Assembly (NCBI GenBank): GCA_963971425.1
Contig: OZ020515.1
Coordinates: forward strand, 2,782,678 to 2,846,677
From: Bryoerythrophyllum caledonicum
Taxonomy: Eukaryota > Streptophyta > Bryopsida > Pottiales > Pottiaceae
Direction of reading: 5' to 3'
Length of the DNA: 64,000 bases
Below the pieces are notes generated by a model. The model saw only the letters and a program-made list of their open reading frames with translations, had not been told where the DNA came from and did not search any database. Below are positions 4,341 to 33,814 of this stretch, one piece after another. How positions within the stretch are numbered: the stretch's first letter is position 1; each line of letters begins with the position of its first letter. The position numbers and the translations under genes are program-made.

Positions 4341-7300
4341 TGTGGGACTCCGTTTCCACATGGTGCCGGAAGTTAACCTAAAAATCCGGCTAAAACAAAA
4401 AAAATAGTTAATAGTAATGTAAGTCCACGCTAGATAACAGCCTATAGTCTCCTGGTAGAAATAAGGACGGATGGGTGGGACTGGAAACTCTAATTACGCC
4501 AAAAGATAGTAAAATCTGAGCCGGAGCAGTTCCCGGAATTCTGGGGCAGATAGTTATCCGGAACCGTCGCCATCAACTGTCATCATGATACCGTACAAAC
4601 GGCCAGACTACTTAAGGCTGGGGTTTGGCAGGACACTCTTTCTTCTCACTCCATCTTCTCGCGACAAGGCAATCTCTCTCTCTTCCCTTTTTCTCTCATT
4701 TTGCGCCCTTACTCTTTCGGTTTTGCTAACCGCTTGCCATTAGGGTTTGGAATTCAGACGGTTAGAACGGACGTGCGTCCGTTAGAGAGGGTCTTTGGGA
4801 GGTTGGTGCGTGCAGGGACAACCTCGAGAGACTGTGAGGAGATAGGCAGAACTCATGAAGTCTGCACCGATGGCAAAGAAGAAGAAGACGGACAGGGATG
4901 GACGCGGTCAAAGAGACGAGGAACCGGCAGTTACCCTACCTCCCTTAACCCGCGTTGTTCCAGAGATACCAGAGGACCCGGACGAGCTCGGCATGCTGAA
5001 GAACAGTTTGAAGTACATGGGCTGTGAGGGGTTGCTCGAGGTTCCATGGGGCATCCGGGAGGAGGTCTACGTCCGGGAGCTTGTCGGGACGCCGGACGAG
5101 AAATACAAGGGGCTGATGAGAGCCCACCCGGAAGTATGGGGAGTCCCGGAGTGGTCCCAGGCCTACGATTTCCGGGCTGGCCGCACCAAGGTGGTGGAAT
5201 GGAGGGACGAGTTTCTAACGGACGAATTCGGAGGACCGGCTGACCCAAAGGATGGCTTCAACCTCCAAGACCTTAAGCACCAGGATGCCCAGCTTGTGCT
5301 AGGGTTTTTAAACCCTATCTTCCATCCGGAAAAGCCGAGAAGGGTGGTGGCGAAGTGGGCCTGTACTTTCCTCGGAGCACTCCAAGGAAAGATCGTCGTC
5401 GACTGAAGGACGCTGATGACCGAGCTGATCAACCGGCTCGTAGCCAACCTCCAGAAGGTGAAGAAATCAGCAACTCCGCTGGCTTCATATGTGGTGCATC
5501 TTAATGCTCACCACCAGCAGCTCACTCAGGCGGAAGTCCGGCACTACGACGAAGTGCTGAACTTCCAGAGGTATGGGGCGGACGAGTTGGAAGGAGAGGA
5601 GTCCGGAGGGAAGGAGCCTGCACCGGAGGCAGCAACCACGAGCACTCCGGAAGGCCGGAAAAACCCCAAGAGACCGAGGTGGAAAGAGCCCGAGACGACA
5701 AGTTCGGAAATCCGCAGTTCCTCCGCATCATTTGGAGAAGAAGAGTCCGGACACTCAGAAGGGACCAACCGGAAGAGGAGGAAGGTTGACAAGGACGACT
5801 CCAAGGGGCAGCTGAAGCAAATGGATGAGCTGACCCGCGAGATCGGCTGGAGAGTTGGTCTCCTAAAGGAGACCAACTTTGTCATCACCACCAGCGTGGC
5901 CCAGATCTTCCGGAGCCTGGATGTCGACCGGCTGAAGGATGCCATCAACAGGGAGGAGGAGCTCCGGAACCGTAAGACGGACGGAAAGGCACTGCACGCG
6001 CAGATTAAGACCATGTACAAGGTCAATACCGACATGGAGAAGAAGATGAAGCAGTACCTTGCGGAGGCCGCCCTGGCAGTGACGGCCCGGAAGCTGGCCG
6101 AAGGGAAGGCCAATGCCTCCGCAGCTGCCTTGAAGGAGGTCCGGGCAGCCCTGGATTTTCCGGTTGATACGGTCAACCGGAGTCGACTCTTCACCGAACT
6201 GGTGGAGAAGAAGGAGAAGGTCAGCTGGGCCAACATCATACGGTTTCTATTAGACCAGGCGGAGAAGATGGGCCGGACTTGGGAGCAGATGCGGCTGCTC
6301 GTCGACAACATCGTCATGGAAGAACCAGCAGTACCTGGTCCGGAAGTTACCCCGACCACCACACAAACTACAGCTCCTCCGGAACCCCCTCCACCTGCGA
6401 CAACTCCAGCTCCGGGAACCTCCGCCAATCCGGAGACCCTGGACACTCCGTCACCTCGGACGCTGACGGAAGGTATCGTACTCCCCAATCCGAGTACAAG
6501 TGAGATCCTGAAGAAGCTTTCGGATCTCCTGTCGCCACCCAACATGCGGCTTCCGGATCCCCCGGCTGAAGGCGACCTCCCAGTTGCACCAGGTCCGTAT
6601 CTCGGAAATTGGCGGACGGACCACGGAGTCCTTCTGGGAGCTACAGGGACTTGGTTTAGAAGACCGGGCCAGCCTCCGCGGCAAGAACACCGGCACCCCC
6701 AGTTCCGGAAGGATCACCGCACCCACCACCTCCACCACCGGACGCCAGTACTCCGGAGTTAGCTGTTCACCCAACATCCGGACCCTCGACCCGGAGGACC
6801 ACCCATTCGCCAGCAACATCGAAGAAAGCGAAAGGCAAGGCACGCGTCCTGGTAGAGATCTCTCCCTCCCGCCGGAGTGGGAGAAACCGGGGCCCAGGAG
6901 CTCCGACTTAGGATTAGTTAGTTCTTTTTTTTGCGTCTCCTTTCTTTCGTCTCAGGGTTAGAGTCCGGATCAGCAGCGACTAACGATGGGGCCCCAAGTG
7001 CACCCGGCTGCTGCCGGAGTCAATAGCCAGTTTGTAGTTAGATTAAGAAATCCGGAGACGGAACGGTTCCGTGATTTGTGGATCTGAGATCCGATCTGGA
7101 ACTTTTCCAGATTTCTCGGATCTTTTAGATAAGATCTAGCGGACTTCCCATTGATAGTTAGAAAGATATCTAAGTTTAGGTAGGACTTAGTTAGTACTTA
7201 GCAGAGGGTTTTTGGGCAAAACCCTTTCATCTTGTTCTACTCATTCAGGAATATACGTTATCATTTTCGCATCAGACTTGCTACCTTGTGTGTTTGAGAT

Positions 7301-8227
7301 GGCGTAGTAAACCTGTGAGGGACGGATCCATTCTTGAGGGTAGGGTTGTGTGAGTAATTCTTCCGGAATAGGGTAATTCAACCGCTTTGCCGGAGGGGGA
7401 AGCTGTCGAGGTCGGTGTTAGGAGATCGCCTGGGAGAGCTGGAGAGAACTATTGCAGAGGTGTTCCTGGTAGTCTCCAAGGTCCGGAAGTAGCCAGGAGG
7501 GGAAGAGATGAATTGCAGAGGTGTTCCTGGTAATCTCTAGTTCGCGGTAGGAACCGCTTAAAACTAGATTCCGGTCAATACCAGAGTCCTCCCCCAAGAT
7601 AGGAAAAAAGCCTGACACCCATACCTTGACGGAATAACCATAGTAAACGGTGTGCCTCTGTCTCGGAGAGTTGCAACGATACCCACCGGAATGTCGTTGT
7701 AGTTCGGATCAGTCTCTGTGTGACCGCATCCGAATGGCCTTTCGGATGTCGTGAGAGCCGACGTCCGGCCGCAGCAATCAAATTACCGGTTAGCAAAGTA
7801 GGGAGAGTGGTGTTCGGTCACTATAAGTTCCGGACAGTGGGTGCCTAGCCACTTTAAGTCACAGGGCAGTGGGAAACCCAGCCACTTACACAAAACAGGG
7901 TCAGTGGACTTCGGCCACTCGCTTAAAAACTCCAGGAGACCCTCTGAGGTGGAACAGAGATAAATCAAACCCTACTTTAGAATTCCGGAAACTACACTCC
8001 GGATAGTATTATATATAACCTGCATTCCGGAAGGACCCGGATCCAATGTAATTAAGTATACTTTCTAGCTAACTTGTAACCGAATTGCTTTTATCAGAGA
8101 GGTAGTCCGGAGTACTGGAAATAAGAACATTAGGTCTCTGGGAACAAAACCGGAGCGGTTACTCTGGGGAGCACTTAGTGACGATTGAGTGCATTCCGGA
8201 GGGATAATGTCTCTACGAACTGCAACA
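4341..8227 (+). mobile_element. Whole LTR-type unit, copy A (3.9 kb, gag-like coding region)
   Basis: The unit starts TGTGGGACTCC and ends ...GAACTGCAACA (TG...CA ends), flanked by ATAAT on the left and ATAAC on the right, a 4/5-matching 5-base target duplication. The order is: a ~500-base untranslated leader; a gag-like coding region (about 4.85-6.8 kb) with an N-terminal helical domain (PWGIREEVY, FLNPIFHPEKP), a long charged coiled coil and a Pro/Thr-rich tail; and a ~1.4-kb 3' region with short repeats. No protease, integrase, reverse transcriptase or second terminal repeat is present. It is a fossil: the coding region is broken about once or twice. It may be a solo LTR that carries a gene or a gag-only element. 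It looks young, with a core identical to the copy at 29909. Confidence 0.75.
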
Positions 8228-11200
8228 ATAACCATTTCACCAGCACACAATTGATAGAATTGCACAAAGTGCTGGAAAAAAAATCATATTCAAGTCTCAA
8301 GCGTCTTAGAATATCCGCAATGTTTAGAAAAGAACTTTGATTATTTTTACCCGGAGCTTATTATGCCCCTCAAATGAAAATTGCATAAATTTCTTGCCAG
8401 CAAATGCAACGAATATGATATCAACGTCTGTAAATATTAAAGAAGAAGAAGAACGCCGGTCCCCGGAGGAGGCCGGCGTGAGTAAAGTGTCCGTTCGTTC
8501 CACCACTAAGTCCATGCCCACCGGGCATGGGTTAGTAGTATGGAACTACTTCCCCCTTTCGAGGGTGGACACTATGTACCAGTAGCAAGTAACCAATATC
8601 AAAGGACCCGAGGTCCCAAAAAGTTTTTAAAAGAGGGAGGGCAAGTACAAAGAGTGCAAAAATGCAAGTGTAGATCTATGGAGGGGGGTTTAAAGTGTCC
8701 GGAAGGGGTTGATTGTTTTCAAGTTTACGTTTATGTAGGAGTATTGACATAGCATGTTGAATTGCATTAGTGTTAATATTTGAAAAGGTGGTTTGGATTG
8801 AAGTGATGGGGATTTTAAAGGTTTCTTCAATAATTGTCATTGAGGGGATGAAGGTGGTGGCTCTAGCACCCGCGGTGATAACAATGAGGGGGTCTACTTT
8901 CCATCCTAGTGCTTGAATATCATCAAGTAGTGGTTGGTATTTATTTGTTTTGTTTGAGATGGTGTCCGGGGAGAATCTATCATTACAGTATGTGAATTCA
9001 ATAAATTGGATGGTGAGATTAGGGTCTATATGGTTTGGTGGGGGGTCTTTGTAAGAAAGTCCTCTAACACATAGTAGGTCCGGTTTGAATCTTGCATTAC
9101 AATGACATCTTTGGGTATTACAGATGCATGGTAATAGCCACGGAGGGACCGTATTTTCTTGTGGATTGTCATTAAAGGTTCCGGCATTCATGAGAATGAA
9201 ACACCGAGATTTGGTTGATGATATGAGTAGTTTACGAATAGCCCATACGGCTTTATTGTGTCTCTTGACAATTAGTGAGTGTATATGGGGGTTTTGGCAC
9301 TTGAGTAAGACATGTAGCCATGTGTCTGGGTCCGTGGTGTTACAAATTGGACATGTAATTGTAGGGAATCTTTCTATTCCAAAGAAGAGTTGTTTACGGG
9401 CATTCCCCATGTATTGTCCGGTGCGAAATTTGATTAGGCATGTGATTTGTGAATCCGTTATAATGGGGTTTTTCCAAAAATTGTTGGATAGAACGTTATG
9501 AATGTTTGGGTTGCCAGTCCATTTATCAATATTGGGGAAGTTTTCTGTAAGTTGTTTTAGGTTATTTACAAGATCATGTTTTTTGAGGTATTTGTCCAAG
9601 AATCGTATGGGGCCTTTGTCAGGAGTTTCACCCATAGAGGGCCATTCATATCTATGGAAGTAGTATGGGGTGGCATGGGCGTGTTCGTATGGGTGTTCGG
9701 CATTCTTGTGGGTTTTTTCTCTTCCTTCCTTTGCTAGTTTGTCGGCTTGTTCATTACCGTCGATATTAGCATGGGCACGGACTTTATGGAGTGTAGTAAT
9801 TTGTGTACGGTTTTGGAGCATTTCAACCATAGATGTAAGGATAGTTTTATCCGGGTGACTATTGTGTAAAGTAGGGTGTTTAATATGTGTATTAAGGAGG
9901 TATAGTACATTTATGCAATCTGTAAAAATGTGAGCCGGTTCGTGTGGGTATTGGGTGGTGATTATTTTAAGGGTTTTGTGTATAGCCATCATTTCGGCTC
10001 TTAGAATATTTTGGAGTCCATGTAGTCTTTTACCTAATTTAATTTGTTTGGTTGAATTGTATATCCCATAACCGGCTTTTTCACGATGCCAATGTCCCGG
10101 GCTTACTTCGGTTGGTTCTTTGAAGGAGCCGTCAGTGTAGTAGCTAAAGTTGGGGTCAAATTTAGGGTCTGTATTAATTTGGTAGTAGGAGAGGGGGAGG
10201 CTTAATTCGGCAATTTGTGATGTGGAGATGTTTGTGTGGGGGGCTTTAGACCATTTTTTGTTGCGATTTACACGGGTTGAAATGGGTGTGGGAGAAGCAA
10301 TTGCGGTATAGACCTTGTTAATGTTTAGATTTTTTGCTATCAAAGTTAGATGAGTAAGGTTGTCTAGAGTACCTATTTCACAAGTTTGTTGGTGTATACA
10401 TAAGATACGTAGAGTTGCCGGTTCAAGGCGGGGTGTTTGTATTTGCGGTGGTATAGTGGGTTCTTTGTATGTCATAGAGTCCGCTTCGAATAGTACTATG
10501 ATGTGGGAGTCCGGGAATGGGCCTAAGTGTGGGTTAGGGTTATGGTACCAATGATTGTCGGGAGTGATAATAATGGTGATGTTGTGGTTGGGGTCATTAT
10601 TTGCCGCTAGGCGTGCCCAATGTATTGCTTGTTGAGTTTCTTCTCCGTTGTGAGGGTGTGCAAGGCCTATTCCACTCCACTTGTAATCAAAAGCTTTACC
10701 AAGAGAACCAAAAATCATATCGCGTTCGAATGGAGAGTAAAATTTTGAGATTTTTGTGGGGCATGTAACGGGGGATGAGAAGTATGAATGTGTGATATTC
10801 AGGGATGTAATAAGGTAGTCTAGGATAGGATCGGGTAATGTGTAGTGTGCATTTTTAAGGGGGTCATTTTTGGGTATTCGGTAGTTATATCTTTGGTATA
10901 GCCAAACAATTTCGGTTTCAAAAGTTTGGGGTATTGGTTCAATGCTAATGGAGGTTTGTAGTGCATTGTGATATTGGTTCCATAGCCAATGTAGTCTAGT
11001 GAGTGGTATGGTAATTAGGTGTCTCCCATTACCTTCGTATATGTGGGCATTATCTTGTTGTATTTTAATAGTATTTGTTTGTGCGAGGATGTCTGTTTCG
11101 GGGTTGCATTCGGTTGTAAGGATGTTAAGGAGGGGGATAATAAGAGGTGGCGTGACAAATCTATTATCTCGAGGTTGTGCTTGAGGGTGATGTAATTGTA

Positions 11201-14200
11201 TGATATTTAGGTAGTGATTGTTTTGAGTTCTAAGGTAGTATTGTGTGAGGATGACGATGTTATGTAATGAAGTATTTGGGTTGTGCCAAGGAAAAAGATT
11301 TCGTTGTGGGAGCCATTTGGCGTAGGAGGTGTTATTGTGGGACCAATGGCATAGGTATGACGTATATTGTTTGCTTATATTGTGAGAGTCAATATATTTT
11401 CTATGTTTGTGCGCGGTTATGTTGTTTATTGGATGTATGGAGGGATTTTTTAATATGTGTGGTGGAGGGGTATGTGGTCGTGAATGTGGTGAGTTTGGAG
11501 GGGTTAATGGGAGATTGGTGTTATGGTGGGTGTCATTGTGATCGATGATGTATGAGTCTTTGAGTGTGTACGGTGTGGCGTGAGTGTTGCAAGGGTTGGG
11601 GCATATAGGGAGGCATGGAGGATGACAAAATAATTGCTTAGCAATATTTAGTGCACTTTTTATTAATTTGTGAGGGGTACCGTAAAATGTTTTGTAGCTC
11701 TTATCGTCCATGAGGTGTGTTCCATTTGGTAGTGTAATTTGTTTTAGATCGGTAATGTTTGCAGAGATAAGTTTTTGTAGGAGTTTGTCAGATAATTGTC
11801 AGTCGAGTATAGGGAGGCTATGTATTTCATTTGCCCAATTTAGTTCGAGCGGCGCGGGGCCTAGTAGGAAATCTTCTAGTGTGCTTTTTAGAAATGTTTG
11901 GCCTTCTGTTTTGAGTAGAAATAGTGTGCGGGTAATGGGGGACCGAAGACAATCAGTTTTTTTAAGTCTATGGAGGTATTGTGCTCCTCCATAAATGGCT
12001 AGGATGTGCCGAAGGAGTCCACTATAGATTAATCCTAGTCGTCCCTTGTCGTTAAGTGCATTTTGGAGTTGTTCTCCAATGCAACGTAGATAAGCATTTT
12101 TGAGGGAGAAAGCTTCTAATCCGAATAGTTCGTGGGGGAGTTGTGTTATGACATTTGGCGTGCAATTAGGGAGTCCGCATACTTTCTTTTGTATAGCTAT
12201 GATTTTTTTATCAAGTTTGTTTATGGCGGGCATGGAGTACGGGACCGCATAGAAACTATATGAGATACCTGGACGTATGACGGTATCAATCATTTTTATT
12301 TTTTGTTGCAATGTGGCCGGACACAATGTAAGTTCCTTGCATTGTTTAATAAGTTTTGTGGTAGTAGCGTGAGTTTGGATTTTCCATTTTAACGATGGGA
12401 CTAGGTTTATTCCAAGGTATATGTAGGATTGGTTTTGGTTGAGAACCGGGATTGGTTGGTTACGATATTGGATATTGGTAGCTTGAATGAGGGCTTTGAA
12501 GGCAGTTGGGTTTATTTTTGATTTGTTTGGGCACCCAGTTACGGCACATTTCTGGACACCAAGTTCCATCCCGGTCCATAGACAAAATTTGTCTATTTTG
12601 TCTAGTTGGGTTTGGAGTGATTTAAGGCGACCAGAGATGGCCGCTAGATCGTCGGCGTATGCGGCCGAGTTTACGGTGATTTTTGAGGTGCCAAATGTGT
12701 AGCCATTATTGCCTCTTTTTAGCCATCTCAATAGAGGTTCTAGAAAAATAATGAAGAGGTATGGGCTCAATGTATCGCCTTGGATGGTACCACGTTGGAT
12801 GGGGATAGGGTGTGTTTTACCAAAAAATTCTCCGGTGTATGTAGTGGTGGATTGGGAGTATATATTACCAACCAGTTTGACTGCGTCTTCCGGATATCCA
12901 AGATCACTCATTATGGCTAGCAATCGAGGGTGGTCAATGGAGCCGAATGCGTTTTTAAAGTCGATGTAGAGTATGTAAATGTCTTTATTAGTGAATTTTG
13001 CGTCTTCAAGTGCGGCAATGAGGGTTTGAAGTTGCCGTGTGGTACTTCTCTCGGCTCTAAACCCTTCTTGGCTTTCGTGTAATATTTGGTGTATTTCCCC
13101 GTACGCCGATAATATTGATGTTAGTGTACTAGTGTATAATTTGTAGATGGTGTTAGCTAGGGCAATAGGTCGGTGGTTAGGTAACACAGATGGGTTTCCT
13201 TTTTTGTATAATAAGATTGTTAGGCTTGTTTTCCAAGATGCGGGAATGGATTTTTGCTTGTAACAGTGAAGGAAGAATAGTGATAGGAGATCGTGGAATC
13301 TTAGTGGCATGTTTTTAAGAATTGAGTTAGGTATATGGTCCGGACCGGGGGCTTTGTTAGTTCCCAAATTTTTTAGGCACATGTTATATGTTTCTCTACT
13401 ATAATATGTGTGGAGAGGTGTTGTTGGCTCGCCTCTTTTGTCAATGGTAAATCCGTCTAAGTCATGCCACGGGTATTGCCTAACTCCGCATGTGCATTTT
13501 GATGTGTGTTGTGGTTGGAAGTGACATGGGGGGGTGGTTGGTCTGTTGTTTATTGATTGTTGATAATGAATTTCGTTTGCGATGTCATCAGGGCTGGTTA
13601 GAATGTTATTGTTTTGGTCTAATATGCAATCTAGTGGCAGGTTTGTGTTATTTTTAAAGACTTTTCTATTAATCTTTTTTGGACTAGATTCGTATAGTTG
13701 GCGATACTTGGATATGGCTTTTTTGACACATTCTCGTGCGTATTTTGTAGTAATTTTTCGAGCTTCTTTATTGGCAATTTTTGCAATGATTGCAATGTCT
13801 TTTAGCCATTCTTCTTGGGATGTGTTGGGTAATGGTAATTGTGGGATATGAGGGTGACGGAGGTTTTGTAGTTCGGAGATTATGGGGTGGGTTTGCCAAT
13901 TTTGATTAGTTTTAGCGGTGTAAATTGTTTTACGTATGGTGTGGTATGTGGTGAGATGTTGTTTCCACTTTTTAGCTAGTTTTCTCGGGAGATATCCCCC
14001 TTGTTTTGAGGTTCTAGGTGTAAGTTGTGGAATTGGGGGCGCTTTACAAGTTTTTTCTAGTGTGGTAGAAATTTCATTAATAAGTTTGTCAAGAGTTGTG
14101 CAAGCTTCTTCCCATTGGGTTGGTGTGAGGTGTTGGTGGTTAGAAAGAATATCTGTAAGGGAGTCTATTTGTAGTGAGTTTTTTTCAAAGAATATTGTAT

Positions 14201-15713
14201 TAAAGTTATGAAGGTTTTCTTTTGGAATGGGATTTAGTATTTTAGTATCATTTAAGTTGATGTTTGTGGGAGGTCTACTTATAAGGGTGTTGTGAGGAAT
14301 ATTGAGTTGGATTGGGAAGTGGTCCGAGTTTAAGTTGGTTATGGTATTTGTGGTAGATGTATAACGGGTATGGTTAGGTGTTTTAATGTAAAATCCATCA
14401 ATTAGGCTAGTGTGTGTGTAATTATGTCCACCTTGACGAGAGTATTGTGTATTGGTTGGGATTAGATATAACCCTAGGTTATCCGTATAATTTCGCCATT
14501 GGTAGTCTAAGTCCATTGGGGGTGTAGTTACCTCTCCGTTTTGTCGTCCAATAAGGGCGATATCTCGGTTAAAGTCTCCGCAGAGTATTATAGTATGGTT
14601 AGTGTGTGTATTTATTTGTGAAGTGATGGAATTTTGGATTTCCGGGATAAGCCTCGAGTCTTCTGTGTGTGAGGGCATGTATAGATGAAGAATGAGCCAT
14701 GGTTGAAGGGGTCGGTTAGTAATTTCAATAATTTGAAGATATGGCGATATATTAGCCGGGGTGGGGATTTTAGTAATATTTCCGGGGAAGGCATATGATT
14801 GGTATATGAGCATGAGTAGACCTCCTCTTGCCGGTGTGTATGGCCTTCGTTGTTGGATGCATCGTGTGAGAGAATGAGTGTTATTGAATATAAGTTTATA
14901 ATCGGGGAATATTTTTTGGATGTATTTTGTGGATTTAGTAGCGGTTAATTTAGTTTCTTGTATGGCAATTATGGCGGGTGGTGTGTTGGTGTGGGCGGTT
15001 AGATTGTGGATGCATGGTAAAGCAGTGTTTAACGTTGCGGCGTTCCATGTGGTTATATATGTACTTCTATTGTCTATGTTGTCGTGGTTAGAGAGTGGAG
15101 GGGAAATGTAAGCGGGTGTCGGGGTGGGGTGCGTGTAAGCGTGAATTGGTTCAAAGCATCTAAGAGCTTCTAAGATAAGATTATGCGGGAAGTAGGGAAA
15201 TTTTAGTTGTACTTCATCGGGAGAAGGGGGTGGGGTTTGGCTATGAATAAAGTTATATAGGTCAATGTGTAGAGAGGTTTTGTGTTCGAGGAGGTGTTGG
15301 TTTTCCTCTAGGAATTTGGTATATGGGTGGAGTGTGTCTATATGTCTTTCGGGGGGATTATGTAGAGAGGATAGGGTGTTTAGTAATATATTTGTCCAAT
15401 GTGTTGGATTTACGTTGGTAGGATGCTGGTTGGTGATAATATTGCATTCGTCTATAGAAGGGTGGAGGGTGGTAATTATGGCGAATAAGATATGTGTGGA
15501 TGGGTGGTTGTATTTTTTTTGGTGTATGTAGCGGGAGATGTTGGGGTAGAGGGTGGAATAGTTTTGGTGAAGAGTGTGATTGTTTTTTAGAAGTGGTGCA
15601 AAGGAGGATGCTAGTTGTTGATATTCAGGGTGGAGTTTTATAGTATTTGGAATGAAATATATTTTTGATAATCTTTTGTGTGTTTTAGGATGGTTGTGGA
15701 AGACATTTGTCAT

Positions 15714-15740
15714 TGGGCCGGGATTAGTTTCTATGTCTCC
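15714..15740 (-). other. Canonical 2A ribosome-skipping motif in ORF2
   Basis: The minus strand encodes GDIETNPGP, preceded by SIILC. This matches the 2A consensus D(V/I)ExNPG|P including the hydrophobic lead-in. In known 2A peptides the ribosome skips the Gly-Pro bond, so the poly-Q leader would be released and the enzyme part would begin with Pro (PMTNVF). The same CGDIETNPGP string is known from 2A motifs of animal non-LTR retrotransposons. Activity here is inferred, not shown. Confidence 0.85.
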
Positions 15741-15804
15741 GCAAAGTATAATTGATAGTCTGCAATGAGTAATGTTTATGGCTGCTAGTGGGAGGGGTGT
15801 GGAG

Positions 15805-16059
<255 letters not shown>

Positions 16060-16169
16060 ATTTTGTTCTTGTTGTCGTTTTTGGTTTGTTTAGTAGTGTG
16101 TAGAGGTATCATGTTTTGTGTCCTATGTGTATTATTATAACTTTTCTGTAACTTTATAATAGTTGTTTT

Positions 16170-16356
16170 AGTATATAAATATACTGAATTAAATCCTTGT
16201 TTGTTTTTAATTAAGTTGTTATTTATATTTTGGTTGTATTTGTTGTGTTTAATAGTGTATAAATACACTAGAGTTATTATTATTTTTATTATTTTAATTT
16301 TATATGTATTTTGGAGATTGTTTATTATATTATATATTATAGTATATATATATACT
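16170..16356. repeat. Three evenly spaced 16-bp palindromes in the ORF1-ORF2 spacer
   Basis: AGTATATAAATATACT (16170-16185), AGTGTATAAATACACT (16254-16269) and AGTATATATATATACT (16341-16356) lie 84 and 87 bases apart. In the ORF2 frame each encodes a VY(I/L)YT peptide, so this looks like a degenerate tandem repeat of 28-29 codons. They could be hairpins affecting ORF2 translation, or relics of tandem duplication. Confidence 0.6.
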
Positions 16357-16393
16357 GTTGTGTATTCTTTGTTTATAGCGTTGTTTGACAATG

Positions 16394-17980
16394 CTAGTTT
16401 GACAAGTCCATCTTGCCTTCAATGGCCCGTTGCTCTCTTTCCGATGCTTGAGATTCGGCCGCCATGATTGTTTGAATCAGTTGGGATCGGAGAGTTGACA
16501 TTTCTCCTCTAAGAGATTTCACCGTGTTGGCTTGTACCATATCCGCGTATTGTTTGGCCTCTTGTACGATCTCCCCCTTCATAGTCTTCATTTCCTTTCG
16601 AAGTTGGTCGAGGGTGACCCCATTGCCCTTGTTTGGTCCATTCTCCATGGCTATCACGGCGTTTACTACTGCTGAGTTTATATCGGAAAATCCTAGTCTT
16701 GTAAGTTCATCCGCACTCGGTTTGTTACTTCCATCTAAACTTTTAGGATGAGGGGTAAACATGACATACTTTCCGTGAAGTTTTTTACTTTGTTTGACAT
16801 GTTTTTTGTATACCGCAGCGTTTAGACATTCAATGTTACATGTCCCTACATGCCGCCCGTGTTCAAGCTTGAAGAATATATCAACCACATTCTCTTCGCC
16901 GAATATAGACTTGATTCCAATTGCAAGTTCTTTTTCATTTTTTGTCTTGTTAAGGTTTTTGGCAATAAGGATAAGACAATTCTTTTTTGCAATTTCATCT
17001 TCATCTAACTTCCTAGTTGCAAAAACCGGCAAAAAGATCTCATTGGAGAATGAGACTTTATAGTCTTTTACTTTCGCCGCTTGTTCCGGGGAGGGGGTTT
17101 TGACCCATGCAAAATCGGATGGGCCCCTTTTTTCCACCCCGGTTATTTCAAAGTCTTGACCTCTAGCAAAACTCTCTCTAACAATTTCTGAATGCAATTC
17201 AAAAGACTCCTTGTTTGCAAGGTTTGGGCCGGATATTTTGACGGATAGGAGGTGTGAAAAGGCAAGGGAATCGTATGACTTGCATACTTTTCCTTTGTGT
17301 GGGATCCCTTCATTCAAGATGAGAATGAAAGGTCTTAAACCTTTCAATAGTCCTCTACCATCCGAGCCTGGGTTTTTTAGGTGTATCTTAATAAGCCCAT
17401 TCCAATTGTCTGTTTGGTGGTGGCAAAAGATGGCAATGGGCTCACCAATACCTGTCCCGGTAGAGATTTTCATTTCATTCAATCTAGCTTTGACCATACC
17501 TAATACAACATTTTTCAACCAAATTTGATCGCCAAGTTCGAATTGAATTGCCACATGGTAATCCAATGCATAACCATTACTGTCCACCTCAACTTCACTT
17601 GGAAGTTGAGTGAGGTTGAAGTGGTTACCCTCTTTCCCGTCTATCCTTGTGGCTGCCCATTCTTTTTGGGCAACGAATGGAAATGAGGGTAGTGCTTCGA
17701 AGCTTTCCCTTGCCTCTTTTATGTCTAGGCCGGACTTGACCAATTCCTCAATACTAACTAATGGTATTTTCTCACTTCCATTGGTCCTTGCCATCATATT
17801 CATTGCATGATATCCTAACCAGTATTCAGTGTAAGGCAAACTTGTTGCCTTCACTTTTTTCTGGGTAGTGTTTGTGATAAATAGAAGGTTATGATTGACG
17901 TTTACTGGACCAGGGTTTTCCTCAACCACATCAATAAACAAGCGCTTGGAGGAGGTTGCACCATCTTGATATTGAGACAT
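16394..17980 (-). CDS. LINE ORF1 protein, RRM-type RNA-binding with coiled coil
   Basis: About 528 residues from ATG at 17980 (MSQYQDGATSS) to TAG at 16394, intact. Residues 17-25 read DVVEENPGP, a 2A-like block. A middle region of unknown fold (residues ~40-330) follows. An RRM-like domain comes next, with RNP2-like LILIAKNL and RNP1-like HVGTCNIEC strands, then a C-terminal Glu/Gln/Lys-rich coiled coil (LRKEMKTMKGE to the end). The expected role is binding the LINE RNA and assembling the ribonucleoprotein, as for other LINE ORF1 proteins. The start is uncertain because the frame is open for another ~1,065 codons upstream. ORF2 follows at once in the -1 frame. Confidence 0.75.
   Translation of the reverse strand: MSQYQDGATSSKRLFIDVVEENPGPVNVNHNLLFITNTTQKKVKATSLPYTEYWLGYHAMNMMARTNGSEKIPLVSIEELVKSGLDIKEARESFEALPSFPFVAQKEWAATRIDGKEGNHFNLTQLPSEVEVDSNGYALDYHVAIQFELGDQIWLKNVVLGMVKARLNEMKISTGTGIGEPIAIFCHHQTDNWNGLIKIHLKNPGSDGRGLLKGLRPFILILNEGIPHKGKVCKSYDSLAFSHLLSVKISGPNLANKESFELHSEIVRESFARGQDFEITGVEKRGPSDFAWVKTPSPEQAAKVKDYKVSFSNEIFLPVFATRKLDEDEIAKKNCLILIAKNLNKTKNEKELAIGIKSIFGEENVVDIFFKLEHGRHVGTCNIECLNAAVYKKHVKQSKKLHGKYVMFTPHPKSLDGSNKPSADELTRLGFSDINSAVVNAVIAMENGPNKGNGVTLDQLRKEMKTMKGEIVQEAKQYADMVQANTVKSLRGEMSTLRSQLIQTIMAAESQASEREQRAIEGKMDLSN
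17906..17932 (-). other. 2A-like motif at ORF1 N-terminus (non-canonical)
   Basis: The minus strand encodes DVVEENPGP followed by V. It has the VEENPGP core of 2A, but the usual Asp is one residue too far upstream (V in its place). It would separate anything translated from the long upstream frame from ORF1. Skipping activity is doubtful without a test. Confidence 0.55.
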
Positions 17981-20900
17981 GCTGTAGCAATAACAAAAAA
18001 TGTCAATTCTAAAGGTACATCGTATTATCTCGTTACCCCTTATCCTCTTGATCTCAGCTTCTCCCCCCAACATATGTTGAGGGCTTTTCGAAGGAGAGTT
18101 TATCAAGAAGGGGTGGAAATTCGTTCTAATGGTGTACCAACAAGATACTAAAACAATTTCTAAAGGTTGGAAGTACAGCGCATTGACCTTTACACATACA
18201 CACGCATGGGAGGCGCCAAAATATTGGGCACCTCCCCAAGTAACTGGCTTGATTAATACATTTTGTTTACATGTCCTTTGGATTGCATAATAATCCCAAA
18301 GTTGGCAAAGATCAATAAATTGTAATGGGGGTGTGAAAGAAGTAAAACCTGAGTGTGTAATTCCACCTTGCAGCCTAGGGGGTAGAGTCTTGATTTGATG
18401 GTCCCCCCGTGTGGTGGTGTACCTCTCGCTTGCCTGTAGCTGAAGTCTCTGTCTGGTTGGTGTGAGCACCACTACGGTTCTTGTAGTACGCGAAAGACAA
18501 GGTTTGTTGGCGTAGCTTGGTGGTCCCCTTCCAGATGTCGCGCACTTCTCTTCTCCAGGTTGATGTAGCGTGGAAAGTACCTCTCTTATCGCGGCTCGCT
18601 TCTTCTTGCCGAGCTGATGGTCCTTGAATGATCCCCGAACGGATCTCTTCCAATCTTGGGCAGGCAGTTGGCGCTCTCTTCGCTCTTGTAGAACTTCTGG
18701 AGCCGTTACCGAGGTTAGGGTTTCTTGGGACGTCGGCGGAGTTGCCGCAACCCGTTTGCAGGACCAGCGCTTGGGCGTCTGTCGGCGGACCAGCTGCGGG
18801 GTTTGCCGAGGTTCCGGGAGGATGTGGTGGAGTCGCGGCCGTTGGGAGTGGTCGTCTTCGCTCGTATGCAGTCTTTGGACTTCACTTGCGCCGGCACAGC
18901 AGTCTCGCCTGACGTGTTGTTGGTCGGGCTTCGTCGGCCCTTCTTCGTAAGTGTGTGGTCTCCCTCTGCGCCTGTTGGCAATCTTCTTCCACCTACATCG
19001 GTCTTCTACAGCGGTTGTCTGTGGCGACTTGTTTGGATCTTGCGCAGACCTTCTTCGTGGTGCAGTCTCCTTGCTCTTTGTTCTGTTGATGTGCTCGGCA
19101 TTCGGGTCTTGGGACAGGGCTTCTTGGTCCTTCTTGCGTCGGTGTGTGCCTTGGGGTCCACCTGCGGGGCAGTTTCTCGACTTCGACTTCGGCTGATGGA
19201 TCCTCGAGTTGGTCTGCTGCGGGCTTCGGCGGTGAGTCTGGATAGCTTTACTCGTTCTGTACTTCACCTGTATGTGTACTGCGTGAGATGCGACATTTAA
19301 CAGAAGTTCCTCTACTATTGTCTGCAGGTGCAGGTGCCGTTCTCTCTGTGAGGCACATGTTAGCGTCCTGTTAACGACTGTCAGTTTACAAACAATCCCC
19401 ATAAAAGACAACAAGATTACAAGGAAGGGAGTAAACCGTTCTTCACTGTCGTAGGTAGTCAAGGCGAGGAGTGTCCAGGCCGATCTTGGGGGTGACGTCT
19501 CTCTCCTCCGTTGGTCCTTCGTGGCTTCAAGCAGGTACTTGCCCTCAACTTGGGCTGAGCAGATGTCGCAGTGTCTCCACAGCGATGGGAGTGGGTGTCT
19601 ACGTGGTATAGCAATGTAAGAGGGTTTGAGAGTAAAGTGATGGTGAGATATATACCTTGTGTTGAGCTCGTGTTTGATGGATGTAGTTGTGGTTGATGAA
19701 CATCTTCGTTTTTGGGTTGTTGATCTTCTAGGGTTAGCTTCTTCTGGGAGCCGTTGAGTTGCGGCTGGTTGATTGTCTTGGCTTGGATGGAAGTTTGAGT
19801 CCTGCTCTTTCGAAAGTTCGTTGTTTTTGTATTGCCGGCTAGGGTTTCGTCTGTGTACTAGTGGTTGTCCAGACTTCCTTGTGAGTTGCATGTCCTTGGG
19901 CATCCTACTAGTATTTAGTGGTGTTTCCTTACCAGAGAAGACAGGAAACGAGGAAATGTTGAGGTTGCTTACCTGTACGTACCTGTTGTTTATTTGGTGT
20001 CTTGAGGTCTTGCTTGCTTGTAGTTGATGTGTTTGGTGGTGTTGTCGCTGCGGTGGTCTTGATGTGGGGCTGTCCAAGGTGTGGAGTCCATGGTCTTGCA
20101 CTTCCTTCCTTGTTGATTTTGGTGGACTCTTGTATGTCGTTGATTTTTCTTTTAGCTCCTGCTCTCTAAATCGACGTTGTCTTCGGCAAATGATGTTGCA
20201 GTGTTCCCTGGTGAAAGTAAATTGGAAGCATATGATGTATAAACTAGGGGTAGGAATACTTACCTTGGCCAGTGGTGGTGATGAGTCGTTGTGCTTGTCT
20301 CCTTTCGTTGAAGTTGATGTCATTCTGTTTACGACGTGGGTCTTGGGGGCGAAGTCGTCCGCCGCGGCCTCTGGAACCGCCGCAGCCTCGTGGCTTTTCT
20401 TGGGCACCTTCTGGAGCTGCGTCTTCATCGTTGCGAATTGCTCCACCCATGTGCTATTTCCGATTTCGGTACTCGGTCCTCTTGCACCACCCGTGTGTGA
20501 TAACACGTTCCTCATGTGCGCGGCGACCTCGTGCATGAGCTTGTTTTTCGGGAGTCTGATGTGCTGCTCGATCTTGGTCATTGGAGGTGCTGTGTCATCG
20601 TGCTTGATTCTTTGAGTTGAGGCTGATGTCATGTTGTTTACGCCCTGGTCCTGTTGTTGTTGACTGCAGGTGTGTTGATCTTGATATGTTGGTGCGGCTG
20701 CTTTGGATCTTCGGTGTGGTGCTGCTGCTGCTTCAGTGTAGGAGTGTAGATTCTGTAGGTCTTCACAGATTAGACGTAGGCGCCTCTCCTTCGTAGTGCT
20801 GAACTGCTGCTGATTATGGGTGGGCTCTATGTGTGAATGGTCTGCAGTTGTGCCAAGTAGGCATCTGTTCTTCTCTATTTCTGCGGGGTTATGAAATACA

Positions 20901-21175
20901 CTTGCTTCCACTACTTTCCTAGTTGTATGTGACCCTAACTTACATTTCCTAACATGAGGTTTTGCAAGATGCCTTTTGCAATTAGACTTAGATTCTATAC
21001 TGTGAAACGATGTAGGCAGCGTATTGTAATGAAAAAACTTAGCTGATTTTGTTGAATGTTGTCCTTGATAGAGTGATCTTGTGTCTCGGTGGCTGTTTCG
21101 TGTCTTCTGTAGGCAGTGGTTCTTCTTCATAGTAGTGCTGATGCTCTGGTTGAGGAGAGGTAAGGTGTATGGCAT
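17981..21175 (-). CDS. Stop-free 5' frame fused to LINE ORF1 (~1,065 codons)
   Basis: This frame runs without a stop from an ATG at 21175 (MPYTLPLLNQ) straight into ORF1. No other frame in the interval exceeds about 190 codons, so chance openness is very unlikely. The product is rich in Gln, His, Arg, Ser and Thr and looks mostly disordered. It contains an internal repeat, VNNMTSASTQRIKHDD versus VNRMTSTSTKGDKHND. No known domain was recognised. It occupies the place of a LINE 5' untranslated region. The 2A-like motif just after its junction with ORF1 suggests it may be translated as the first part of a polyprotein. Alternatively it is an untranslated leader with biased composition. Confidence 0.5.
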
Positions 21176-23669
21176 GTCTATGGTGTCATGGTAACCTAAA
21201 TCTGGATCTAATTGATTGAGAGATGATATGGGGCTGCAACCTCTAGATCTAGATCTGGGCCAACACAGAGCCCCGCCACAGATCTACTCTCCCAAACTAG
21301 CTCTAGATTGTTGCAACCTCCTACATACTTTGCATCAATAGATCTAAGATACGCAATCCCTCAACACTTTGCACACCATAAGCATACCGTTCAGCAACAA
21401 AGGACGTGCACACAGGGATTTACAATGAGCCCAGCAACCCTCATTGATGTGTGCATTGCAATTGCGCCTAACACCTAGAAACCTCTCCTCACCAGGTTTT
21501 GCGGAGCTACTCTTCTCTCATCTCTCACTCATCCTCGCTACTCTTATTGCGGCCATGTTTGACTATGGCAGTTTTGGACTTGTAAATATTAATTACTAAC
21601 GACCATGTCCAAGAGTCCGACACCCAAGCTTATGAAATCTTCAGGCCATGTCCTACTCTGTCTGTACAGATAGCCAATAAAAAGCACCAAAATCTTCAAA
21701 CGAGGGGTAATAGAGGAGCATAGGGTGTGAACAGTTCTCTAGGTAGATTGGGTCTTCAAAACCTGTAGATGCAGTGGTGACTTCAGAGAGAAGCTCTAGT
21801 GTTACAAATGATGAAGCTCGTTCATCCGCATCCCAGGATGCATGAGGAATCGCCATTCCGTCCAACGGCATCTTCGTTGGACCATCACATGCCTGACAGA
21901 CCAAGTGCTCCATTCATCCACATCAGTAATCGCCACGATTACCTCAGGATTCGCAACATCGAACCGAAAAAGGTCAATGCTAAGTTATATTCATGAGTTT
22001 GTATGCAATGTCTATACATATCTGTACGATCAGGAATTTTTGCGAATGAAAAAACACAGCCTATTCCAAGACAATAGTTCACGAAGGCCCGCATGGCTTC
22101 CATACCATTACAAGCACAATCCCACATTCCGCGCCTTCTTTGTCACAACGACAAACAAATACCTTCACCTTATTCAGCATCTTCTAACCACAGGAAAAGC
22201 TCCGAAAGTCATCAACTTTGGCTACTGCGTTTCAAACAATTTTTTCATTACTGAGGCACAGTGTGGAGATGCAAGAAACTTTGATCTTGAAGATCTTCCA
22301 ATAAAATTATTACGTAAATCTTCATTCATCAGCACAAAATGTTCAAGGCTGTATCTTCGCTTGCTACTGGACGATTCCAACTCCTGCGAGTACTTTCATT
22401 GCGCAATCCCTCAGCTCCATCTTTGTCCAGCTCCCTCATCCATTCCAACTTCCAACTTCATGCCTTCTTACTCGTAGAAAACTGGTGAGCCACCGACATT
22501 CCACCCACACTGTCACTTTCTGTTGCCAAATCCACAGAAGCCAATTTTTCCTAGACTTCCGTTGTCCGTCGTCTTGGCCCAAATTATCCACGCCATACTA
22601 ACATCCACACCTAAGTCGGACCTCCATGTCGTCTCTCCGACCCTAAATCGATCATTGATAGCCCTCCAAGTCGCCCACTGCATGCTTTGCTGCTCTTGAA
22701 TGCGTTCCGCCAAAATTGAACATCAGTCTGCGCCAAACCAAAACAAAAGAAACAAAATAAACAAAGAGAAAATAAAAGCAGAAGAAAGTAAGAGAGAAAG
22801 GAAGAAAAAGAGAGAAAAGAAGAAAAAGAGAGAAAGGAAGAAAAAGAGAGAAAGGAAGAAGAAGAGAGAAAGGAAGAAGAAGAGAGAAAGATGAATAAAA
22901 GAGTGAAGGCAAGGAACTACAAAGAAACTAAAGAGAATGAACTAAAAGGTGTTAAGAGAGGAAGAGAGGAAGGGGGATCAGAAGAGGGAAAGAGAAGGAC
23001 AGAAGCAGAAACAAGAATTATAGCATACAACAGAAGAAGGCAAACACAAGAAAACCCTTTCAAACAAAGGCATCACCAACAACCCCAAGAATGACTCATA
23101 CAATTGCACCCACTGCACAATCATACTTCCAAACAACGAGTAATATAATCTATTGCTGCAGACGCATGCTACGAAACACATCCCTCAACCAGACCCTTCA
23201 AGACAAGGAAAAAGGAGTGGTGCCGACACCACCACCATGGAAAAAACAAGAAATCAATCTCATCCCTCAGAACCCTCCCCCTCAGCAAAGTCACTACAAC
23301 ATCAGAAACAAACGAGTCCCATCATTCTCACCTTGCATATATGTACGGAAAGATAGCTCTCTTTCTCTACCTGACTTGCCACATTGAGATACTGCTCACA
23401 CATTCAATCAAAACAGCCAACATCAGACCACCTTCGCGTTCAAAACTTACCAACACTGCACAAGCTGCGGTGCTCTTCCTCACACGATGACGCCGAGATG
23501 ATGTTGCCACAGTTGTAGAGATTACACCAGAAGTGTCCAATCCACCAACCACAAGTCCAACCTCGCCTAAAACACCAACTCACAGCCAAGTGGCAACAGG
23601 GTGAGACGACCAACACCGTGATGTTTCACACCACAAGACAAGCAAAATAATACACATGCATACAACACA
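21176..23669. other. Gene-free interval upstream of the LINE
   Basis: Only short, unconvincing frames occur. It may include the LINE's true 5' end and its target site. A purine-rich tract lies at about 22780-22905. No RNA gene or known transposon end was recognised. Confidence 0.5.
22780..22905. repeat. GA-rich imperfect microsatellite
   Basis: The tract repeats GAGAGAAAGGAAGAAAAA-type units (about 18 bases) on the plus strand. It is low-complexity polypurine DNA; the Lys/Arg/Glu-only frames across it are not evidence of a gene. Confidence 0.85.
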
Positions 23670-29908: not shown

Positions 29909-32900
29909 TGTGGGACTCCGTTTCCACATGGTGCCGGAAGTTAACCTTAAAATCCGGCTAAAACAAAAAAAAAAATAGTTGATAGTTATGTTAATTTCCA
30001 CTAGAATACAGCCTATAGACTACGCGTAGAAATAACGGCGGATGGGTAGGACTGTAAACCCTAATTAAGCCAAAAGCTGGTAAAGATCTGGACCAGAGCA
30101 ATTCCCGGAATTCCGGGGCAGACAGTTAACCAGAACCGTCAGCCGGAACCGTCGCCATCAACTGTCATCATGATACCGTACAAACGGCCAGACTACTTAA
30201 AGCTGGGATTTGGCGGGGCACTCTTTCTTCTCTCTCCGTCTTCTCGCGTCGAGGCCATCTCTCTCTCTTTCTTTTGCTCCCACTCCCCGCTCTTACTCTG
30301 ACGGTTTTTGCTAACCGCTTGCCGTTAGGGTTTGGAAGACAGACGGTTAGAACGGACGTGCGTCCGTTAGGGAGGGTCTTTGTGAGGTTGGTGCGTGCAG
30401 GGACAACCTCCAGAGATTGTGAGGTGATAGGCAGGACTCATGAAGTCTACGCCGATGGCAAAGAAAAAGAGGACGGACAGGGATGGACGCGGTCGAAGAA
30501 ACGAGGAGCCGGCAGTTACCCTGCCTCCCTTAATCCGCGTTGTTCCGGAGATACCAGAAGACCCGCACGAGCTCGGCATGCTGAAGAACAGTTTGAAGTA
30601 CATGGGCTGTGAGGGGTTGCTCGAGGTTCCATGGGGCATCCGGGAGGAGGTCTACGTCCGGGAGCTTGTCGGGACGCCGGACGAGAAATACAAGGGGCTG
30701 ATGAGAGCCCACCCGGAAGTATGGGGAGTCCCGGAGTGGTCCCAGGCCTACGATTTCCGGGCTGGCCGCACCAAGGTGGTGGAATGGAGGGACGAGTTTC
30801 TAACGGACGAATTCGGAGGACCGGCTGACCCAAAGGATGGCTTCAACCTCCAAGACCTTAAGCACCAGGATGCCCAGCTTGTGCTAGGGTTTTTAAACCC
30901 TATCTTCCATCCGGAAAAGCCGAGAAGGGTGGTGGCGAAGTGGGCCTGTACTTTCCTCGGAGCACTCCAAGGAAAGATCGTCGTCGACTGAAGGACGCTG
31001 ATGACCGAGCTGATCAACCGGCTCGTAGCCAACCTCCAGAAGGTGAAGAAATCAGCAACTCCGCTGGCTTCATATGTGGTGCATCTTAATGCTCACCACC
31101 AGCAGCTCACTCAGGCGGAAGTCCGGCACTACGACGAAGTGCTGAACTTCCAGAGGTATGGGGCGGACGAGTTGGAAGGAGAGGAGTCCGGAGGGAAGGA
31201 GCCTGCACCGGAGGCAGCAACCACGAGCACTCCGGAAGGCCGGAAAAACCCCAAGAGACCGAGGTGGAAAGAGCCCGAGACGACAAGTTCGGAAATCCGC
31301 AGTTCCTCCGCATCATTTGGAGAAGAAGAGTCCGGACACTCAGAAGGGACCAACCGGAAGAGGAGGAAGGTTGACAAGGACGACTCCAAGGGGCAGCTGA
31401 AGCAAATGGATGAGCTGACCCGCGAGATCGGCTGGAGAGTTGGTCTCCTAAAGGAGACCAACTTTGTCATCACCACCAGCGTGGCCCAGATCTTCCGGAG
31501 CCTGGATGTCGACCGGCTGAAGGATGCCATCAACAGGGAGGAGGAGCTCCGGAACCGTAAGACGGACGGAAAGGCACTGCACGCGCAGATTAAGACCATG
31601 TACAAGGTCAATACCGACATGGAGAAGAAGATGAAGCAGTACCTTGCGGAGGCCGCCCTGGCAGTGACGGCCCGGAAGCTGGCCGAAGGGAAGGCCAATG
31701 CCTCCGCAGCTGCCTTGAAGGAGGTCCGGGCAGCCCTGGATTTTCCGGTTGATACGGTCAACCGGAGTCGACTCTTCACCGAACTGGTGGAGAAGAAGGA
31801 GAAGGTCAGCTGGGCCAACATCATACGGTTTCTATTAGACCAGGCGGAGAAGATGGGCCGGACTTGGGAGCAGATGCGGCTGCTCGTCGACAACATCGTC
31901 ATGGAAGAACCAGCAGTACCTGGTCCGGAAGTTACCCCGACCACCACACAAACTACAGCTCCTCCGGAACCCCCTCCACCTGCGACAACTCCAGCTCCGG
32001 GAACCTCCGCCAATCCGGAGACCCTGGACACTCCGTCACCTCGGACGCTGACGGAAGGTATCGTACTCCCCAATCCGAGTACAAGTGAGATCCTGAAGAA
32101 GCTTTCGGATCTCCTGTCGCCACCCAACATGCGGCTTCCGGATCCCCCGGCTGAAGGCGACCTCCCAGTTGCACCAGGTCCGTATCTCGGAAATTGGCGG
32201 ACGGACCACGGAGTCCTTCTGGGAGCTACAGGGACTTGGTTTAGAAGACCGGGCCAGCCTCCGCGGCAAGAACACCGGCACCCCCAGTTCCGGAAGGATC
32301 ACCGCACCCACCACCTCCACCACCGGACGCCAGTACTCCGGAGTTAGCTGTTCACCCAACATCCGGACCCTCGACCCGGAGGACCACCCATTCGCCAGCA
32401 ACATCGAAGAAAGCGAAAGGCAAGGCACGCGTCCTGGTAGAGATCTCTCCCTCCCGCCGGAGTGGGAGAAACCGGGGCCCAGGAGCTCCGACTTAGGATT
32501 AGTTAGTTCTTTTTTTTGCGTCTCCTTTCTTTCGTCTCAGGGTTAGAGTCCGGATCAGCAGCGACTAACGATGGGGCCCCAAGTGCACCCGGCTGCTGCC
32601 GGAGTCAATAGCCAGTTTGTAGTTAGATTAAGAAATCCGGAGACGGAACGGTTCCGTGATTTGTGGATCTGAGATCCGATCTGGAACTTTTCCAGATTTC
32701 TCGGATCTTTTAGATAAGATCTAGCGGACTTCCCATTGATAGTTAGAAAGATATCTAAGTTTAGGTAGGACTTAGTTAGTACTTAGCAGAGGGTTTTTGG
32801 GCAAAACCCTTTCATCTTGTTCTACTCATTCAGGAATATACGTTATCATTTTCGCATCAGACTTGCTACCTTGTGTGTTTGAGATGGCGTAGTAAACCTG

Positions 32901-33814
32901 TGAGGGACGGATCCATTCTTGAGGGTAGGGTTGTGTGAGTAATTCTTCCGGAATAGGGTAATTCAACCGCTTTGCCGGAGGGGGAAGCTGTCGAGGTCGG
33001 TGTTAGGAGATCGCCTGGGAGAGCTGGAGAGAACTATTGCAGAGGTGTTCCTGGTAGTCTCCAAGGTCCGGAAGTAGCCAGGAGGGGAAGAGATGAATTG
33101 CAGAGGTGTTCCTGGTAATCTCTAGTTCGCGGTAGGAACCGCTTAAAACTAGATTCCGGTCAATACCAGAGTCCTCCCCCAAGATAGGAAAAAAGCCTGA
33201 CACCCATACCTTGACGGAATAACCATAGTAAACGGTGTGCCTCTGTCTCGGAGAGTTGCAACGATACCCACCGGAATGTCGTTGTAGTTCGGATCAGTCT
33301 CTGTGTGACCGCATCCGAATGGCCTTTCGGATGTCGTGAGAGCCGACGTCCGGCCGCAGCAATCAAATTACCGGTTAGCAAAGTAGGGAGAGTGGTGTTC
33401 GGTCACTATAAGTTCCGGATAGTGGGTGCCTAGCCACTTTAAGTCACAGGGCAGTGGGAAACCCAGCCACTTACACAAAACAGGGTCAGTGGACTTCGGC
33501 CACTCGCTTAAAAACTCCAGAAGACTCTCTGAGGTGGAACAGAGATAAATCAAACTCCTCTCCAGATTTCCGGAGACTACTCTCCGGAAAGCTTTGTATA
33601 TAACCTGGATTCCGGAAGGACCCGGATCCAACATAATTAAGTGTACCTTATAGCTAACTTGTAACCGTATTGCTGTGATCAGTAAAGTAGTCCGGAGTAT
33701 TGGAAAGAAGAACATTAGGTCTCTGTGGGAACGAAACCGGAGCGGTTACTCTGGGAAACACTTAGTGACGATTGAGTGTATTCCGGAGGGATACTGTCTC
33801 TACAAACTGCAACA
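29909..33814 (+). mobile_element. Whole LTR-type unit, copy B (core identical to copy A)
   Basis: It starts TGTGGGACTCC and ends ...AAACTGCAACA like copy A, with the same parts: leader, gag-like coding region (about 30.4-32.4 kb) and 3' region. From 30567 to 33419 it appears base-for-base identical to 4982-7834, whereas its first ~650 and last ~300 bases differ from copy A at many sites. Its flanks (AGTAG and GTTGT) do not match, so no target duplication is seen. On the right it interrupts the acidic tail of a hAT transposase. It is a fossil, broken about once or twice, and probably reshaped by recombination or gene conversion with copy A. Confidence 0.75.

Follow-up and report, generated by a model that had tools for sequence, protein, structure and literature searches.

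A candidate StopGo (2A) peptide preceding the ORF2 enzyme of a Dualen/RandI-like LINE in a probably green-lineage genome

Organization of the LINE and its surroundings

The window, the whole 64,000-nucleotide stretch of DNA analysed, carries a LINE for which the limits (Table 1) are the extent of near-identity to one sibling at G000:C2, in two short stretches. The sequence GAAGAAGAAGAA at ~8441-8457 is located at the 3′-end of the element and constitutes a TTC repeat on the sense strand (GAA/TTC). A 1539-codon open frame (16418-11802, minus) contains the sequence GDIETNPGP and also encodes endonuclease and reverse transcriptase domains. In 20 of 22 near-identical copies the corresponding frame is open for 2521-2757 aa, as compared with 1539 in the window copy and 1528 in one other. 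Comparison of 3023-nt segments between the window and four other loci gives 99.87-99.97% identity, which points to recent movement.

Table 1. Features of the LINE, listed from its 5′-end to its 3′-end
Feature	Window position	Strand	Basis or remark
Complete LINE copy (3′-end at 8441, 5′-end at 21526)	8441..21526	minus	about 13 kb
Open frame upstream of conserved ORF1	17981..21283	minus	1101 in-register codons without a stop
Conserved part of ORF1, 528 aa	16394..17980	minus	MSQYQDG... to stop
Second NPGP motif, VVEENPGP, in ORF1	17906..17929	minus	possible non-canonical 2A
AT-rich, non-repeat part of the ORF2-frame leader	16059..16418	minus	overlaps ORF1 end by 25 nt
Poly-Q tract, 84 codons	15807..16058	minus	hypervariable; from translation
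L/I-rich lead-in, ITHCRLSIILC	15741..15773	minus	KLLLLLG/S/C in other families
2A/StopGo core, GDIETNPGP	15714..15740	minus	from translation; predicted skip between G and P
APE-type endonuclease domain	14310..15050	minus	Pfam Exo_endo_phos_2, E=2.7e-6
Reverse transcriptase domain	12405..13196	minus	Pfam RVT_1, E=7.8e-29
In-frame stop breaking ORF2 in the window copy	11799..11801	minus	
PCIF1-like methyltransferase domain with AHPHN	10668..10943	minus	Pfam PCIF1_WW, E=7.7e-9, over cut-off
RNase H domain	9720..10145	minus	Pfam RNase_H, E=8e-13; PDB Ribonuclease H1, E=0.004
CCHC motif, C-x2-C-x9-H-x4-C	9297..9353	minus	invariant in 8/8 aligned sequences
KPD...E motif, candidate restriction-like endonuclease	8997..9086	minus	K, P, D and E invariant in 8/8

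The match to the APE-type endonuclease is marginal, at 27.7 bits against a cut-off of 27.4 for Exo_endo_phos_2, with Exo_endo_phos (E=0.0053) below its cut-off. The PCIF1-like domain is located between the reverse transcriptase and RNase H domains and has AHPHN where PCIF1 has NPPF. As AHPHN is kept in 13 of the 20 fetched loci (L015-L017, L019-L024, L026, L028, L029 and L032), this appears to be a conserved variant and not a sign of decay. The invariance of the C-terminal CCHC and KPD...E motifs was established in an alignment of eight sequences, with L109 left out because it has a stop in this stretch, and L107, L110, L114 and L115 not used. There are no matches to this region in the PDB (profile search) or in Pfam, and identification of a restriction-like endonuclease (RLE) by homology was therefore rejected; by its motifs, the region is a candidate RLE. 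The earlier note described a dual-endonuclease element, and of its two nucleases the APE stands by virtue of a Pfam match barely over the cut-off, and the second by its invariant motifs only. Based on domain content (APE, reverse transcriptase, RNase H and C-terminal CCHC/KPD...E), the carrier appears to be a Dualen/RandI-like LINE.

The conserved part of ORF1 has a pN/pS of 0.15 relative to L017 (527 codons) and 0.13 relative to L014 (316 codons), and tblastn with the window ORF1 finds matches at 16 of the 20 fetched loci, the match in L032 being on the other strand from its 2A site. No match to the conserved ORF1 was found in Pfam at E<=0.1 or in the PDB at E<=5. Between the conserved ORF1 and the 5′-end at 21526, there are 4 stops in register as compared with 47 and 48 in the other frames. 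The upstream open frame is weakly constrained, with pN/pS values of 0.78 for 135 aligned codons and 0.75 for 139, and contains one stop in the L014 comparison. Within 500 visible codons of this frame there is one in-frame stop in the near-identical L010, and none in L009 (the window itself) or L011-L013.

The pattern GARNNNAAYCCNGGNCC has two matches in the window, as compared with 0.02 on average for shuffled sequences, the second being VVEENPGP in ORF1, near the border of the upstream open frame and the conserved ORF1. The VVEENPGP codon pattern occurs at 24 sites in the assembly and at 0 in the control, and has V at p12, which places it outside the expanded StopGo core, (D/G/C/N)(V/I)ExNPGP. 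Among seven close relatives read (L134 did not align), the motif is kept in L129, which differs from the window at 2 of 51 residues, and in L130 (SKRLFVDVVEENPGPM); it is altered to NPSP in L017 and to NPCV in L133, lost in L014 and absent in L131 and L132. No NPGP was seen at the ORF1 N-terminus in L015, L019, L021-L024, L027, L028 and L033, for which alignment near the motif is weak. With retention in only two of seven relatives, and the motif unseen in these nine more distant loci, VVEENPGP was rejected as an equal second 2A. As a rare natural variant with V at p12 retains over 95% activity in its own context, according to the available text of PMC12846837, activity of the ORF1 motif is possible.

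The assembly (437,360,962 bases, 894 contigs) has three rbcL genes on small contigs (C821, C590 and C894). Two versions, L116 and L117 on contigs C821 and C590, are 96% identical, and the PDB matches of L116 are Rubisco large chains. We take both to be of the green type and, with an accD located beside rbcL that presumably fits streptophytes, this suggests an assembly from the green-plant lineage, in support of the plant-like genome proposed from the window. The presence of two rbcL versions might reflect a second plastid source or contamination. The window also contains three related repeats that are 94-97% identical (4341-8227, 29909-33814 and 61601-64000). The LINE lies between the first two, both of which have a 451-aa ORF, identical in DNA sequence and without a Pfam match. 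Two DUF659 ORFs (34325-36085, minus, and 50297-52339, plus), presumably relatives of hAT-type transposases, and a DUF7869 ORF (43519-45186, plus) are also present.

The 2A core and its conservation among copies

In the translated sequence, GDIETNPGP (15740-15714, minus) is directly preceded by RLSIILC and directly followed by MTNVFHNHPK. DIETNPGP conforms to the expanded StopGo core and is positioned in frame, with coding sequence on both sides (ORF 16418-11799). By eye, an L-rich lead-in that ends in C, S or G and is followed by G-D, with G at p11, appears to agree with upstream motifs 2/6 of the StopGo peptides, as these are given in the available text of PMC12846837. Codon patterns for GDIETNPGP and D(V/I)ExNPGP have 1402 (712+690) and 1714 (877+837) matches, respectively, in the assembly, and the reversed patterns used as controls have 0 and 2. 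The initial observation, of a 2A core sequence within a LINE ORF2 and behind a hydrophobic lead-in, is confirmed.

Twenty 10-kb loci chosen by motif were fetched and, with the window, provide 22 sites. The lead-in consensus from these has K at -7 (0.86), L at -5 (0.82) and L at -2 (0.86). Leaders in the 20 loci are Q-, N/H-, T/N- or K/T-rich, depending on the family, with parts common within subgroups, and these divergent leaders converge on KLLLLL-G/S/C-GDIETNPGP-MPN. There are 30 synonymous spellings of the core among 73 fetched sites, some of which come from overlapping loci. At sites with other spellings (DIEK, DIEQ, DVET, DIEA, DIEI, and DIET without the preceding G), the motif runs into a recognizable ORF2 in eight of nine cases. 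One site with another spelling, L126, has the lead-in and MPN in common and diverges thereafter. At this locus (G000:C1:8818970-8819270), MPN is followed, as judged by eye, by an apparent element 3′-end on the opposite strand, perhaps from an insertion beside the 2A. Intact GDIETNPGP sequences also occur as pairs, 510 bp apart on one strand, at G000:C1:6319947/6320457 and C1:44910457/44910967, and L016 has a degraded upstream copy, GDMETNPRP. Based on these pairs and the L016 copy, the 2A region itself seems to have been duplicated within elements.

Copies were also chosen by endonuclease domain, and not by motif. In a search of the genome with this domain, 148 of 3880 candidates were scored, the first 22 being ~100% identical to the window. 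Sixty copies were taken from the remaining 126, the next 40 in order plus 20 lower (the last 17 and three others); one of these read as N, leaving 59 aligned. Of the 59, 52 have an unaltered D(V/I)ExNPGP and 53 have the expanded core; the six copies that have lost the latter comprise three with NPSP, one each with NLGP and TYPGP, and one that is rearranged. Among the 20 copies with open frames of at least 2000 aa there is one such loss, and no significant link was found between a broken 2A and a short open frame (19/1 vs 34/5, p=0.65). The earlier note had named non-conservation among copies as the result that would count against a 2A; with the exact core in 52 of 59 copies, and with synonymous variation present, the proposal withstood this comparison.

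Calculated for 43 distinct sequences, with the rearranged copy dropped, piN/piS is 0.109 in the core, 0.354 in the ten codons upstream, 0.292 in the next 15 codons and 0.086 in the 13 after those (codons 34-46). As piS in the core (0.305) is like that of the next 15 codons (0.308), the constraint is mainly on the peptide. Codons 34-46, however, show a degree of conservation equal to that of the core, and conservation by itself is therefore not specific evidence for skipping; the core is constrained, yet not beyond parts of the enzyme body. Among 58 copies, only p15 varies recurrently (T in 51, K in 4, I in 2 and M in 1), with one change each at p12, p16 and p17, three at p18 and none at p13, p14 or p19. 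More informative are the change at the leader, the freedom of synonymous codons to vary and the recurrent variation restricted to p15.

Entry into the ORF2 frame and predicted skipping

The length of the glutamine tract ranges from 61 to 257 residues among nine near-identical copies, in all of which the frame is maintained. In the window and L094-L101, in that order, the tract lengths are 84, 87, 155, 157, 190+L+67, 227, 87, 61 and 119, the 257-residue figure being the sum of 190 and 67 with one Leu between; L102 and L103 were left out of this comparison. The remainder of the leader is identical in all nine except for one substitution in L101. Such variation in leader length between otherwise near-identical copies fits the idea that the enzyme is freed from its leader. 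The poly-Q leader noted initially is real, as a feature of some families only, its place being taken in others by the N/H-, T/N- or K/T-rich sequences. The 360 nt that precede the tract in the window are 77.5% A+T, and their 120 codons have no stops in the ORF2 frame as compared with 15 and 12 in the other frames; in Markov-1 simulations of this leader, 1 of 20,000 was open. ORF1 and ORF2 overlap in the window in a -1 register, an offset shared by L014 and L017, with a different offset in L028 and L015. No canonical slippery heptamer was seen, by eye, at the window overlap, and the first ATG of the ORF2 frame in the window is at codon 103. An ORF1-ORF2 fusion considered for L016 was rejected, as the long frame consists largely of low-complexity repeat, together with the degraded second copy of the 2A region, and the window ORF1 matched L016 only at E=0.65.

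The observed basis for interpretation is the sequence and position of the motif, the open leader, conservation at the amino-acid level, the near-identical copies and the variability of the leader. Judged from these sequence features, GDIETNPGP very probably functions as a StopGo (2A) peptide where the ORF2 enzyme of this Dualen/RandI-like LINE begins. Entry of ribosomes into the ORF2 frame would take place where ORF1 ends, or close by, through -1 frameshifting or termination-reinitiation, and would be followed by translation of a leader that varies in both sequence and length. At ...GDIETNPG/P, the G-P bond would not be formed, and the leader, with ORF1 if fused, would be released. Translation would then continue to generate an enzyme predicted to begin PMPN or PMTN.

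Met is the next residue after the motif at 58 of 58 and 22 of 22 sites, which makes initiation there conceivable, with the conserved peptide then simply the upstream edge of a conserved region. Short leaders without any ATG in the ORF2 frame, in four of the first eight copies (L001, L003, L005 and L006), are in keeping with such a start. Proline codons are, however, CCN, so that the base at -3 of this ATG is always C, and at 21 of 22 sites the base at +4 is C as well. Under the usual Kozak rule, C at -3 and +4 is a poor start context. With, in addition, a window leader that is open in the ORF2 frame only, and a peptide before the ATG that is constrained with free synonymous change, unlike an untranslated edge, an ATG start at this position is improbable. 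Slightly more improbable still is that the motif is conserved because it serves a structural function in an ORF2 protein that stays uncleaved. Residues soon after the motif (SKIYFIPNTIKLH) are equally conserved, as this would predict, but the leaders that stand before the motif are of widely different sequence, and both the pattern of change, recurrent at p15, and the L-rich lead-in are those of StopGo peptides as described in the available text of PMC12846837. The hydrophobic run that precedes the core could also be considered part of an N-terminal signal peptide with partial skipping, for which the sea urchin NLR proteins provide a precedent (PMC4981915, in the text available). This is very improbable here, as the run has only about six residues and in most copies is located behind 61-257 glutamines or long polar leaders, not at the protein start. 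A chance match or lone relic, conceivable for so short a motif, has practically no likelihood and is already refuted by the genome counts of 1402 and 1714 sites, for which the reversed controls gave 0 and 2.

Beyond a StopGo peptide at the enzyme start, it is possible, albeit rather unlikely, that the element encodes a polyprotein with up to three recoding events. The p12 = V motif in ORF1 would act as a StopGo to cut the long free leader from ORF1; a -1 frameshift or reinitiation would lead from ORF1 into the stop-free, repeat-expanding leader; and the canonical StopGo would free the dual-nuclease enzyme. The 2A would then insulate the enzyme from a microsatellite, which could expand without harm. 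If true, this would constitute large-scale natural use of StopGo in the green lineage.

Relation to known 2A-bearing and Dualen/RandI elements

L1Tc, a non-LTR element of trypanosomes, presumably belongs to a clade other than that of the window LINE. The statement in the earlier note that 2A motifs are known from other non-LTR elements agrees with the available text of reports on L1Tc (Heras 2006; PMC4981915, PMC5972666) and on APE-type elements of multicellular organisms, in which the 2A is reported to mediate recoding (Odon 2013; PMC4981915). As here, L1Tc has a 2A core in frame in a non-LTR retrotransposon protein, and the elements of Odon 2013 have D(V/I)ExNPGP in LINE proteins. Based on the same partial texts, the window LINE differs from L1Tc in its host and in having the motif placed after a leader on the ORF1 side and ahead of a long APE-RT-RNase H-CCHC enzyme, and from the Odon 2013 elements in being dual-endonuclease-like, in an assembly with green-type rbcL, with 1402-1714 sites and a hypervariable poly-Q leader. 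According to the available text of PMC12846837, natural StopGo is mainly a viral mechanism, is seldom encountered in cellular organisms, and gave no evidence that plant viruses use it. The L-rich class of viral peptides (motifs 2/6) described there shares the core, the L-rich hexapeptide, and G and D at p11 and p12, respectively, with the window LINE family; p15 is a free position at which these motifs favour S, whereas the window LINE family has mostly T and is a mobile element in a genome.

Dualen encodes both an APE and an RLE, and RNase H has been reported from Dualen/RandI (PMC4640811, in the text available). Green-algal Dualen/RandI elements share APE, reverse transcriptase and RNase H with the window LINE, in which CCHC/KPD...E could be the RLE, but the available portions of the reports (PMC4640811, PMC8226300, PMC3747384) make no mention of a 2A or of a PCIF1-like domain, and give (ATT)n or (CTATTT)n as the 3′-ends of RandI, in contrast to the TTC repeat here. 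Among the literature matches listed, there is no report of a 2A for Dualen/RandI or for a green-lineage LINE. The presence of 2A in other LINEs is thus already known; the clade, the apparent host lineage, the scale and the leader are what appear to be new.

The element is very abundant, a single assembly with green-type rbcL having well over a thousand sites with a StopGo core, some in near-identical copies. These provide a source of natural 2A variants shaped in a probably green-lineage host, a case in which a repeat tract of up to 257 glutamines adjoins an enzyme, and a test case for why a LINE would separate its enzyme by means of a 2A.
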